NCBI RefSeq assembly: GCF_000482505.1
Contig: NZ_AXVL01000009.1
Coordinates: 1-64,000, forward strand
Direction of reading: 5' to 3'
Length of the DNA stretch: 64,000 bases
From: Leptotrichia trevisanii DSM 22070
Lineage (GTDB): Bacteria > Fusobacteriota > Fusobacteriia > Fusobacteriales > Leptotrichiaceae
Positions 8,841 to 14,824 of this stretch are shown here, one piece after another. Each line of letters begins with the position of its first letter. Position 1 is the first letter of the stretch. A model generated the notes under the pieces. It made no database searches, was not told where the DNA came from, and worked only from the letters and a program-made list of their open reading frames with translations. The position numbers and the translations under genes were made by a program.

Positions 8841-9242
8841 ATGGAACTTAAGGATATTCAGGAATTAATGCAAGTTCTAAAAAAGGAAGATTTGGCAGAA
8901 ATTAAAGTAAGATATGGAAAAGTAAAACTTACATTAACAAATTCTGAAACAGTAAAAACTGTAAATAATCCGACATCAGTGGTAAAAAAAGAAGTGAAAG
9001 AAGTTACAAAACCAGCATTGCCAGTAGAAGAAATCATAAAATCAGGCAATGTAGGTAAAATAAAGTTACTAAGCTCAAAAACAGGAACAGTGGTAAAAAA
9101 AGGGCAAATTCTTGCCAAAATTAACACAATGGGGATTGATAACGATGTAAAATCAACTGTAAACGGTATTTTAACAGAAATTCTTGTTACAGATGGTTCA
9201 GCTGTGGATTTTGCAAAGGAATTATTTAAAATTGAAGTATAA
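8841..9242 (+). CDS. accB: AccB-like biotin/lipoyl-fold protein lacking the biotin lysine
   Basis: 133 residues. The N-terminus (1-35) resembles AccB, residues 36-68 are a linker, and 69-133 form a biotinyl/lipoyl domain (VGKIKLL...VKKGQILAKI...NGILTEILV...FKIEV). In biotin carboxyl carrier proteins the hairpin carries E-A-M-K-M with the biotinylated lysine. Here the aligned segment is N-T-M-G-I, so the lysine is Gly98 (GGG at 9132-9134). The thumb loop of E. coli AccB is also missing. The gene sits directly upstream of accC, after RBS GAGGAGGG. Either another biotin carrier exists elsewhere, or this protein has a scaffold role. The domain call is firm; carrier function is doubtful. Confidence 0.85.
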   Translation: MELKDIQELMQVLKKEDLAEIKVRYGKVKLTLTNSETVKTVNNPTSVVKKEVKEVTKPALPVEEIIKSGNVGKIKLLSSKTGTVVKKGQILAKINTMGIDNDVKSTVNGILTEILVTDGSAVDFAKELFKIEV

Positions 9243-9263: not shown

Positions 9264-9308
9264 ACGAATCTAAGTAGCTCATTCAGATTAATCTTGAGAT
9301 TCGTTTTT
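9264..9308 (+). terminator. Hairpin/terminator between accB and accC
   Basis: ACGAATCTAAG (9264-9274) pairs with CTTgAGATTCGT (9293-9304, one bulge), then a T run. It may partly terminate accB transcripts and so set the accB:accC ratio. Confidence 0.65.
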
Positions 9309-9365: not shown

Positions 9366-10721
9366 ATGTTCAAAAAAATATTAATAGCAAACAGAGGAGA
9401 AATTGCTGTTAGGATAATCAGAGCAGCAAGAGAGTTGGGAATAGCGACTGTTGCAGTTTATTCAGAAGCTGACAAGGAATCACTTCACGTAAAGCTGGCT
9501 GATGAAGCTATCTGTATCGGAACTGCCAGCAGTGCAGACTCATACTTAAAAATACCCAATATTATTTCGGCGGCACAAATGACAGGAAGTGAAGCAATTC
9601 ACCCTGGATACGGATTCTTGGCAGAAAATCAAAGATTTGCCGAAATATGTGACAAAAACGAGATTGTCTTTATTGGCCCAAAACCTGAATTAATCAATAT
9701 GATGGGGGATAAGGCGACAGCAAGGGAAACTGCCATCAAACACAAAGTCCCTATAACAAAAGGTTCAGACGGAATTGTGCCAAATGTGGAAGAAGCCAAA
9801 AAAGTTGCACAATGGATAACTTATCCGGTTATGATAAAAGCCACTGCCGGTGGTGGTGGTAAAGGAATGAGAATCGCCCATGATGAAAAGGAACTTGTAG
9901 AAAATTACATTGCCGCACAAAATGAAGCAAAGGCAGCATTTGGAAATCCAGATGTCTACATTGAAAAATATGTGGAAGAGCCAAGACACGTAGAAATACA
10001 AGTTGTTGGAGATAAATTTGGAAATGTAGTTCATTTAGGTGAAAGAGATTGTTCCATTCAGAGACGGCATCAAAAATTAATAGAGGAATCTCCATCAGCG
10101 GGAATTGATGCCAAAACACGTGAAAAAATGGGAAAATTCGCCGCAAAATTGGCAAAAGGTATCGGTTACGACAGTGTTGGAACATTGGAATTCCTTGTTG
10201 ATAAAAACATGAATTTCTATTTTATGGAAATGAATACCAGAATTCAGGTGGAACACACTGTAAGTGAAGAAATTACTGGTGTTGACTTGATAAAAGAACA
10301 AATAAGGGTGGCCGCAGGAGAAAAATTAAGTGTTTCTCAAAAAGATATAAATATTGATGGACACGTGATAGAATGCAGAATTAATGCAGAAGATTCTGAA
10401 AATGGATTTTTACCTTCATCTGGAATACTGGAAACATACATTCCATCTGGAGGGATTGGAGTAAGAATCGACTCACATTCTTATCAGAATTATGAAATCC
10501 CGCCTTATTACGACTCAATGATAGCAAAACTTATTGTAAAAGGTAAAAACAGGGAAGAAGCCATTGCAAGAATGAAACGTGCCTTAAAGGAATTTATTAT
10601 AGAAGGTGTTGACACAACTATACCATTCCACTTAAAAGTGCTTGATAATCAAGACTTTAAGAAGGGGACTATCTATACAAACTTTATTGAAACACATTTT
10701 AAAGAAGCACTTGGCAAATAA
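9366..10721 (+). CDS. accC: Acetyl-CoA carboxylase, biotin carboxylase subunit
   Basis: 451 residues, full length. It starts with the FKKILIANRGEIAVRIIRAA signature of biotin carboxylases. The ATP-grasp glycine loop GGGGKGMR, the EKYVEEPRHVEIQV segment, the catalytic MEMNTRIQVEHTV segment and a C-terminal biotin_carb_C region are all there. It uses ATP and bicarbonate to carboxylate biotin carried on AccB, the first half-reaction of malonyl-CoA synthesis. ATG at 9366 with AGGAGG 11-17 nt upstream. The catalytic subunit looks fully functional, in contrast to the neighbouring carrier that lacks its biotin lysine. Confidence 0.96.
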   Translation: MFKKILIANRGEIAVRIIRAARELGIATVAVYSEADKESLHVKLADEAICIGTASSADSYLKIPNIISAAQMTGSEAIHPGYGFLAENQRFAEICDKNEIVFIGPKPELINMMGDKATARETAIKHKVPITKGSDGIVPNVEEAKKVAQWITYPVMIKATAGGGGKGMRIAHDEKELVENYIAAQNEAKAAFGNPDVYIEKYVEEPRHVEIQVVGDKFGNVVHLGERDCSIQRRHQKLIEESPSAGIDAKTREKMGKFAAKLAKGIGYDSVGTLEFLVDKNMNFYFMEMNTRIQVEHTVSEEITGVDLIKEQIRVAAGEKLSVSQKDINIDGHVIECRINAEDSENGFLPSSGILETYIPSGGIGVRIDSHSYQNYEIPPYYDSMIAKLIVKGKNREEAIARMKRALKEFIIEGVDTTIPFHLKVLDNQDFKKGTIYTNFIETHFKEALGK

Positions 10722-10814: not shown

Positions 10815-11210
10815 ATGAACGAATTAGGAAATGTAAATATATCGCAGGAAGTGGTAGCAACAATTGCAGAATCAGTAGTATCAGAAATTGAAGGAGTACA
10901 TAGCCTTGTTGGTGGAACTTCTAAAAATGAAATTGTTAAATTTTTCCAAAATGTATCTTCAGGCGGAAAAGGAATCGAAGTGGAAGTTGGAGAAACTGAA
11001 TGCACACTAGATTTATATATTGTGGCAAAAATGGGATACAAATTACCTGCACTAGCTGGGGAAATTCAAACAAGAGTGGTAAAGGCAATTACTGAAATGA
11101 CAGGATTAAAAGTTCAGGAAGTTAATGTTTACATTCAAAAAATTGTAAAAGAAGATAAAAAAGAAGTTATTCAGGCACCTGTAACAGAAACAGCAGAAAT
11201 TGAAGAATAA
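10815..11210 (+). CDS. Asp23/Gls24 family envelope stress protein
   Basis: 131 residues. The family pattern is clear: NELGNVNISQEVVATIAESV at the start, then EIEGVHSLVGG, and a C-terminal VKAITEMTGLKVQEVNVYI. Asp23 proteins are abundant cytoplasmic proteins held at the membrane by AmaP, whose gene follows, and are linked to envelope stress in Firmicutes. RBS TTAGGAGG precedes the ATG. The genes asp23-amaP-nusB form a conserved unit. An acidic tail ends the protein. Confidence 0.93.
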   Translation: MNELGNVNISQEVVATIAESVVSEIEGVHSLVGGTSKNEIVKFFQNVSSGGKGIEVEVGETECTLDLYIVAKMGYKLPALAGEIQTRVVKAITEMTGLKVQEVNVYIQKIVKEDKKEVIQAPVTETAEIEE

Positions 11211-11347: not shown

Positions 11348-11998
11348 ATGATTGCAATATTAGGATTTTTAGCAAGATTATCTGTTATACTTGGATTTAT
11401 TGGAATTGCATTTTCAAGCATATCAGATATGCTGTTTAGGACTGATTATTTAGGGCAACTTGACAATTTTGTTGATTTAAACAGCCTAAATTTTAAAATT
11501 TTAGTTGGGATATTATCAATTATCTATTTAGTTATATTTTCACTTTCATACATCAATAAACTGACAAAATATTCTCAAAATAGAAAAGTTAAAAATAAAA
11601 ATGGAGAAATTGAAGTTTCCGTCAAAACAATAAATGAAACATCAAAAGACTTTTTAAGTGGGCTTGAAATTATAAAAAATTCAAAAGTAAAGTCATATCC
11701 AAGCGGAAAGGCTGTCGTCATAGAAGCTACTGTGGACACTTATAACGTCGATAATCTAAATGAAAAATTGGCAGATATTCAAAACAAGTTATCTGATTAT
11801 ATTTTTCAGGCAACTGGAATTACCGTAAAAAAAAGTAAAGTAAAATTGAAAAAAGTTTTAGGTGAAACAATCATTGAGAAAAAAATCATTGATTCTCCAA
11901 CTGTTCAAAAGGAAGAAAATACTAATAACGAAAACACAAATCTAAAAAACAAAAATGATGTACAAAATAAGACTTCCCCATCTGGAAAGGAAAATTAA
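11348..11998 (+). CDS. amaP: Alkaline shock response membrane anchor protein AmaP
   Basis: 216 residues. Two N-terminal membrane segments (about 4-26 and 52-72) are followed by a cytoplasmic domain and a Lys/Asn/Glu-rich tail. This matches AmaP, which anchors Asp23 to the membrane. The start ATG lacks a clear RBS: the nearest one (AAAGGAG near 11287) lies about 55 nt upstream, and an in-frame stop at 11333 excludes earlier starts. Translation may therefore be weak. The stop overlaps the nusB start by one base (TAATG), indicating coupling. Confidence 0.85.
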   Translation: MIAILGFLARLSVILGFIGIAFSSISDMLFRTDYLGQLDNFVDLNSLNFKILVGILSIIYLVIFSLSYINKLTKYSQNRKVKNKNGEIEVSVKTINETSKDFLSGLEIIKNSKVKSYPSGKAVVIEATVDTYNVDNLNEKLADIQNKLSDYIFQATGITVKKSKVKLKKVLGETIIEKKIIDSPTVQKEENTNNENTNLKNKNDVQNKTSPSGKEN

Positions 11999-12411
11999 TG
12001 ACACGAAGAGGAATTAGAGAAGAAATATTTAAACTTCTTTTTGAATACGAATTAATTGACAACAATATTGACAAAAGAATAAATGATATAATTAATGAAG
12101 AAAGTTTAAAAAAAGATGAAGAAATCGACTTTTTAAGAAGTTATGTTACAGAAATAATTGAAAATCAGAATATTCTAATTGAAAGAATACGGGAAGTGCT
12201 AGATGGTTGGACTTATGAACGTTTGGGAACAATAGAAAAAGTTTTATTAAAAATATCTTTTTATGAAATTACTATAAAAGATATAGGATATGAAATAGCA
12301 ATTAATGAAGTTCTTGAAATTGCAAAAAAATATTCCTACAACGACACAAAAGACTTTTTAAACGGAATTCTTGCAAAATTAGTACAGAATATTAAAGAAG
12401 AAAAAAAATAA
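11998..12411 (+). CDS. nusB: Transcription antitermination factor NusB
   Basis: 137 residues, typical of NusB. It begins TRRGIREEIFKLLFEYE and has the conserved C-terminal elements LLKISFYEI, AINEVLEIAKKYS and FLNGILAKL. NusB binds boxA RNA with S10 (NusE) to promote read-through of rRNA operons. It overlaps amaP by one nucleotide. A terminator follows. Confidence 0.95.
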   Translation: MTRRGIREEIFKLLFEYELIDNNIDKRINDIINEESLKKDEEIDFLRSYVTEIIENQNILIERIREVLDGWTYERLGTIEKVLLKISFYEITIKDIGYEIAINEVLEIAKKYSYNDTKDFLNGILAKLVQNIKEEKK

Positions 12412-13954: not shown

Positions 13955-14824
13955 TTATTCCCTTGTTCCCATTTCCTTGTCTAATAAATATAACGTAGCA
14001 CTATTATTATCAACATCAAGCGAAACAATTTTATCAATTAATTTTTGAACTTGTTCCTCTTCTTCTTCCTGTTCTTCAGCAAATTCATTTAAGAATACTT
14101 CTGCTCCATAATCTCCCAATTCCCTTGCAAGTTTATGAATATTTTCGATAGAGGCTGTTACAGCTTCTTCATGTGCAAGAGCAGCTTCAAATACTTCCTT
14201 TACTGACGTAAAGTCCATTTTGGGCTTATCTAGTGCAAAAAATTCAATTTTCCCATTTCTTTTTAATACATAATCATAAAATTTTCTTGAATGTTCAATT
14301 TCCTCTTTTGCTTGATTTCCCATCCATTTTGCAAAACCTTCCAATGCTCTTTCGTCAAAGTATGCAGCCATAGCCTGATATTGATAAGAAGCAGCAAGCT
14401 CCATATTTATTTGGTTATTTAATAAAACTTCCAATTCTTTATTTAATTTCATTTTCTCTCCAATCTCAATTTCCACATTGCCCAATTTTGACAAATCAAA
14501 TTTTGATAAATTTACATCAAAGTCAATTATTTCTCCACAAGATTTACACTTGAAATGTCCATGATCCTCTGTAACTACATCATATCTCACTTCATTTTCC
14601 TCTATTATGATTTCTTGAATAATGTTATTACTGACAAATATGTTTAATGTGTTGTATACTGTAGTTTTTGATAAAGTTGGCATTTCAGGAGATAAACTTT
14701 GGAAAATATCATCAACTGTTGGATGTGTATGATGATCCAGTAGATATTGAAATATCTTCATTCTTTGTACTGAAGGTTTTATTCCATTCTTCTTCAAATA
14801 TTCACCAACGTTTTCTATATGCAT
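13955..14824 (-). CDS. PerR/Fur-family regulator fused to a ferritin
   Basis: 289 residues. Residues 1-123 are a PerR-like winged helix plus metal site: by alignment with Bacillus PerR the five sensor ligands are kept (His34, Asp82, His88, His90, Asp101), and the Asp rather than Glu at the last site is PerR-type. The first structural zinc pair is present (CKSCG, Cys93/Cys96), but the last strand and second CxxC pair are missing. Residues 125-289 are a full-length FtnA-type ferritin with ferroxidase ligands Glu142, Glu175, His178, Glu219 and Gln252. Met125 (14452) has its own SD, GGAGAG, so ferritin alone may also be made. The promoter carries a PerR-box-like site. Fusion is seen; autoregulation is inferred. 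Confidence 0.9.
   Translation of the reverse strand: MHIENVGEYLKKNGIKPSVQRMKIFQYLLDHHTHPTVDDIFQSLSPEMPTLSKTTVYNTLNIFVSNNIIQEIIIEENEVRYDVVTEDHGHFKCKSCGEIIDFDVNLSKFDLSKLGNVEIEIGEKMKLNKELEVLLNNQINMELAASYQYQAMAAYFDERALEGFAKWMGNQAKEEIEHSRKFYDYVLKRNGKIEFFALDKPKMDFTSVKEVFEAALAHEEAVTASIENIHKLARELGDYGAEVFLNEFAEEQEEEEEQVQKLIDKIVSLDVDNNSATLYLLDKEMGTRE
14450..14462 (-). promoter_or_regulatory. Internal ribosome-binding site before the ferritin half
   Basis: On the minus strand TTGGAGAGAAA directly precedes ATG (14452-14450), which is Met125 of the fusion and the natural first residue of an FtnA-like protein (MKLNKELE). This would permit separate translation of a 165-residue ferritin, the usual family length. 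Confidence 0.6.

Follow-up and report, generated by a model that had tools for sequence, protein, structure and literature searches.

Acetyl-CoA carboxylase (ACC) catalyses the opening step of fatty acid synthesis, and its heteromeric form is usually taken to be made up of AccA, AccB, AccC and AccD across bacteria. In plants, the BADC protein touches the thumb of BCCP. The BADCs are BCCP homologues without the AMKL motif that serve as glue for the BC-BCCP assembly; they share 25-30% identity with BCCP and have been presented as a peculiarity of the plant enzyme (PMC11926652). In the E. coli BC-BCCP complex, four BCCP cores stabilise the assembly with biotin far from the active site, and in Chloroflexus an eight-stranded barrel built from BCCP hairpins connects two BC dimers, with a gain in BC activity (PMC11077971). 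The accBC-yqhY gene order, studied in B. subtilis, has been reported as conserved in Fusobacteria (PMC5437119), and the fusobacterial gene described here has thus so far been counted as accB.

The window (the whole stretch of 64,000 nucleotides analysed here) belongs to the genome of Leptotrichia trevisanii DSM 22070 (2.85 Mb, 78 contigs, 99.98% complete). Directly upstream of accC it carries a gene, hereafter accB', that runs from an ATG start through 133 codons without an internal stop (Table 1), in agreement with the first-pass annotation, which had reported an AccB-like protein in a clean reading frame next to accC. The product matches the shared Biotin_lipoyl domain of Pfam (PF00364, 39.7 bits) and, as its best curated family, the BCCP profile TIGR00531, of which it covers positions 1-155 of 156 at 42.1 bits, below the equivalog cut-off of 115.2 bits; among the other AccB' places listed, none scores above 66 bits. 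The adjoining AccC is conserved, as had been claimed, with 738 bits against TIGR00514 (cut-off 626.5). A single-protein query on the genome contigs returned close relatives and canonical Bacteroidota BCCPs, and the AccB' N-terminus, MELKDIQEL, is an identical string in Bacteroidota BCCPs.

Table 1. Features of the accB' cluster, in window coordinates
Feature	Position	Strand	Basis
accB', AccB/BCCP homologue without the biotinyl lysine, 133 aa	8841..9242	+	ORF, family profile matches and alignment
AccC-binding-type N-terminus, helix and beta-hairpin, residues 1-35	8841..8945	+	AccB equivalent; homology
Barrel-sandwich (biotinyl-type) domain, thumb-less, residues 65-133	9033..9239	+	AlphaFold, pLDDT 92.8
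Gly98 codon, biotinyl-lysine position	9132..9134	+	Gly in 81/81 orthologues
Hairpin ACGAATCT...AGATTCGT followed by TTTTT, accB'/accC spacer; possible partial terminator	9264..9308	+	
accC, biotin carboxylase, canonical	9366..10721	+	TIGR00514 match
Asp23/YqhY-family gene, same conserved cluster	10815..11210	+	Sequence and cluster position; operon known from PMC5437119
Gene for an AmaP-like membrane protein, same cluster	11348..11998	+	Sequence; conserved in cluster
nusB	11998..12411	+	Sequence; conserved in cluster

Further along the window, a single ORF on the reverse strand (13955-14824) encodes a Fur domain (12-105) and a ferritin (134-266) in one chain. In the relative G077 the two are adjacent genes (L127:1499-1915 and 1961-2458), so that the window ORF reflects either a deletion that fused them or a mistake in the assembly.

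Profile-profile comparison aligned AccB' with BCCPs over its full length (99.7% probability, 24% identity), and the best match in the PDB is the AccB chain in the E. coli BC-BCCP complex 4hr7, to which both the N-terminal part and the biotinyl domain align. The flanking fold was said to be intact, and the AlphaFold model bears this out for the core, which reaches a TMq of 0.92-0.93 to solved biotinyl domains (E. coli 1bdo and 4hr7, Arabidopsis BCCP1); the full-length model is poor (pLDDT 35), the core being the one part modelled well, and the N-terminal part is assigned by sequence homology.

What is missing from this fold is the biotin site. The string N-T-M-G-I (residues 95-99) is matched to E-A-M-K-L/M in the multiple, profile-profile and PDB alignments alike, and Gly98 does occupy the position of the modified lysine, at the codon originally proposed. 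This column holds Gly in all 81 distinct AccB' proteins, from 81 genomes, and Lys in all 32 canonical BCCPs, and the whole EAMKMN motif is absent from AccB'. The absence of the thumb loop was likewise correctly noticed: where canonical relatives have YRSAGPD the window protein has a seven-residue gap, and the invariant thumb proline of BCCPs falls in a gap in 81/81 AccB'. The survey refines this point, since the loss is complete in the Leptotrichiaceae, and in many other Fusobacteriota a short stretch of unrelated residues stands at this place. The lipoyl lysine of PF00364-type proteins was also looked for, and AccB' has no lysine at that site. AccB' therefore fails the cut-off score, the A-M-K-M/L lysine and the thumb as marks of a BCCP, and keeps the core (by model) and the N-terminal segment (by sequence). 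Just three columns of an 80-sequence alignment are invariant, namely G72, G98 and G109. A sequencing error as the source of Gly98 is ruled out by its presence in 81 genomes, and its conservation in all 81 distinct orthologues together with a dN/dS of about 0.1-0.3 places it beyond chance.

The search of the genome for a canonical carrier and for BirA, proposed with the first-pass annotation, yielded both. A canonical BCCP with the motif EAMKLMNEV lies beside folD on another contig (C7), two BirA ligases and accD are present, and an ACC carrier thus exists outside the accC cluster. The same genome holds an oxaloacetate-decarboxylase-type gamma carrier (C2) and a lipoyl-domain protein (C29), as well as a second AccB-type carrier, EAMKLMNEI, beside a pxpC-like gene (L002 on C21) and a second AccC (C6:97001-98332). 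The BCCP gene adjoins folD in the two genera inspected, Leptotrichia and that of G043, and a canonical BCCP at or near the curated level occurs in nearly all AccB' genomes. Those without a separate one are two incomplete genomes (G015, G086) and the pair G063 and G064, in which the carrier is part of a fusion with a PycB-like protein. In the latter, a PycB-like carboxyltransferase is joined to a complete AccB module with its helix-hairpin and AMKLMNEV domain (L131:1442-3271 in G063; L132:590-2428 in G064), which besides AccB' is the sole Biotin_lipoyl match there at E<=1e-4.

When considering 98 Fusobacteriota genomes, the protein search matched 85, and the accB' gene was read in 81. An accC above the family cut-off and AccB' co-occur in 81/81, and neither is found alone among the 98 genomes. 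The accB' gene is immediately upstream of accC in all loci examined with flanks, with spacing from an overlap up to about 120 bases, and the order accB'-accC-asp23-amaP-nusB is kept, where the contig reaches, in nearly all loci read; the exceptions have one later gene unrecognised (L048, L040) or end early (L122, L120). Downstream of this cluster, a bioB-like (biotin synthase-like) gene is seen in G041 and G064 (L129:8788-9759 and L121:8615-9571). The remaining 17/98 genomes are without accC, and some of them are incomplete. Nine small Leptotrichiaceae genomes that are 92-99% complete (G065, G082, G083 and G091-G096) have no accC, accD, curated-level BCCP or AccB', which suggests that fatty acid synthesis has been lost there. 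In genus g14 (G016-G018), accD is present, accC, AccB' and an AccB-type BCCP were not found, and the only carriers are of the decarboxylase type (L123, L125).

The accB' gene shows the signs of constraint. Pairwise dN/dS values within the genus and with one neighbouring genus are mostly 0.1-0.3, with the exception of one nearly identical pair at 0.44, and mean identity is 0.36-0.38 in the helix and hairpin, 0.42 in the core and 0.15 in the linker. In a maximum-likelihood tree a single branch, with support of 100/98, separates AccB' from BCCP. The BCCPs of E. coli and Bacteroidota group with those of Fusobacteriota, which makes AccB' an old single lineage, though long branches near the split call for caution. 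We lean towards a scenario in which, before their radiation, the Fusobacteriota evolved an obligatory, BADC-type, non-biotinylated ACC subunit in the usual accB position, while the carrier function passed to a gene of its own, which in two lineages has become joined to that of a pyruvate carboxylase subunit.

The combination of retained binding parts with a missing biotin site is, by analogy, best explained by a structural subunit. On these sequence comparisons and the likeness to plants, we consider it probable that AccB' is a non-biotinylated, AccC-bound structural subunit of the Fusobacteriota ACC, working like the plant BADC proteins; the linkage to accC adds support that is partly a consequence of the shared cluster. 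The earlier suggestion of a second carrier that does the work, with AccB' as a paralogue for scaffolding or regulation, is supported by the canonical BCCP of the genome and by the phylum-wide occurrence of the form lacking the lysine; the choice between scaffold and inhibitor, like AccC binding, mixed complexes and the assembly role themselves, is one that we infer. The N-terminal helix and hairpin of AccB' would bind AccC, and the N-terminal segments of AccB' and canonical BCCP would probably together contribute to the barrel of hairpins, or to the docking sites, by which biotin carboxylase dimers are joined. The lysine-free core would take up a docking position in the architecture and play no part at the active site, leaving the separately encoded BCCP as the sole carrier to swing between AccC and AccAD. 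The AccB':BCCP ratio would then set complex assembly, and through it the output of malonyl-CoA, as proposed for plant BADC. Two BC residues named in the Chloroflexus study, Tyr32 and Arg37 (PMC11077971), correspond, with equivalent numbering assumed, to Tyr/Phe and mostly to Lys/Arg in 67 Fusobacteriota AccC.

AccB' could instead be mainly an inhibitor that competes with holo-BCCP for AccC and lowers ACC activity at low fatty acid demand, which is one model for plant BADC. A core without the lysine attached to a retained AccC-binding-type segment would be a natural dominant-negative, YqhY, the Asp23 protein with a homologue in the same cluster, is reported to act as a brake on ACC in B. subtilis (PMC5437119), and the spacer hairpin with its T-run, present only in the closest species, could hold the level of AccB' above that of AccC. 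However, this hairpin is not general: counterparts with other letters occur in G077 and G072, the rest of the Leptotrichia checked have none, and the folding of the window hairpin does not stand out (z -1.3). Moreover, AccB' is never lost in the 81 accC genomes, which is easier to square with an integral subunit than with a dispensable inhibitor; an assembly role is thus likelier than pure inhibition, which we regard as rather unlikely. The conserved order through asp23, amaP and nusB also invites the idea of an adaptor linking AccC with the Asp23-AmaP pair and, through it, with the membrane or with growth-linked control. As far as known, B. subtilis AccB is biotinylated, and the linkage to asp23 therefore needs no lysine-less form. 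When YqhY is deleted in B. subtilis, mutations in subunits of ACC are selected, among them one at AccB L2, in keeping with such a tie, but the accB-accC-asp23 order is also found in Firmicutes and other groups (PMC5437119), and an adaptor seems improbable to us.

The two other readings concern the protein itself. With its barrel fold intact, AccB' might bear a prosthetic group at a different lysine and act as a carrier, the second option of the first-pass annotation, which had itself doubted Lys104 as a substitute. That doubt was justified, as this column is Lys in 53/80 orthologues; no lysine is invariant in the 80-sequence alignment, the best being K29 of the N-terminal hairpin (75/80), and there is consequently no conserved alternative biotin site. 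An alternative biotin lysine is thus rejected, and with the EAMKMN motif gone and canonical carriers present, any carrier role for AccB' is very improbable. Equally hard to credit is a decaying relic of an ancestral accB left behind after replacement by a second carrier. The gene does stand upstream of accC, where accB is normally found, and in one genome (G028) the frame shifts within a poly-A run in the linker (L118:2849-3258), the sole broken accB' seen, for which sequencing error or slippage is possible. Yet accB' is intact in 80/81 genomes with its own conserved positions and an invariant glycine, and purifying selection contradicts decay; a pseudogene is rejected on the dN/dS values, with a frameshift only in G028.

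The reading of AccB' as a structural subunit would have consequences beyond this locus. By analogy, it suggests that the ACC of Fusobacteriota includes a non-catalytic subunit as a fixed component, for which the only reported parallels come from plant chloroplasts. In this phylum, to which Fusobacterium belongs, a fifth subunit resembling a carrier appears to stand where accB is expected. In the literature searched, which covers few subscription papers, we found no report of a lysine-less bacterial AccB, and a look for essentiality data from transposon studies of Fusobacterium returned nothing usable. Assaying or targeting the ACC of these bacteria with the cluster-encoded 'AccB' would mean using a protein unable to carry biotin, and Fusobacteriota AccB' would offer a small bacterial model for the debated question of whether plant BADC is glue or brake.

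Compared with known systems, AccB' resembles E. coli AccB/BCCP (4hr7, 1bdo) in its helix-hairpin, linker and barrel, in its adjacency to accC and in the close structural match of its core, and differs in lacking the biotinyl lysine, the EAMKMN motif and the thumb and in scoring below the equivalog cut-off. The accB-accC-asp23 family order is that of the B. subtilis accBC-yqhY operon (PMC5437119), except that in Fusobacteriota the accB place encodes the protein without the lysine instead. In Chloroflexus aurantiacus BC1, a fused BC-BCCP, a BCCP-type hairpin likewise joins BC dimers into a tetramer (PMC11077971); unlike in AccB', it is there part of a biotinylated, fused carrier. The likeness to plant BADC, drawn by description, is that of a non-catalytic BCCP homologue without the biotinylation motif working alongside a true BCCP; whereas BADC is known from plastids, outside any accC gene cluster, AccB' is encoded within the accC cluster.
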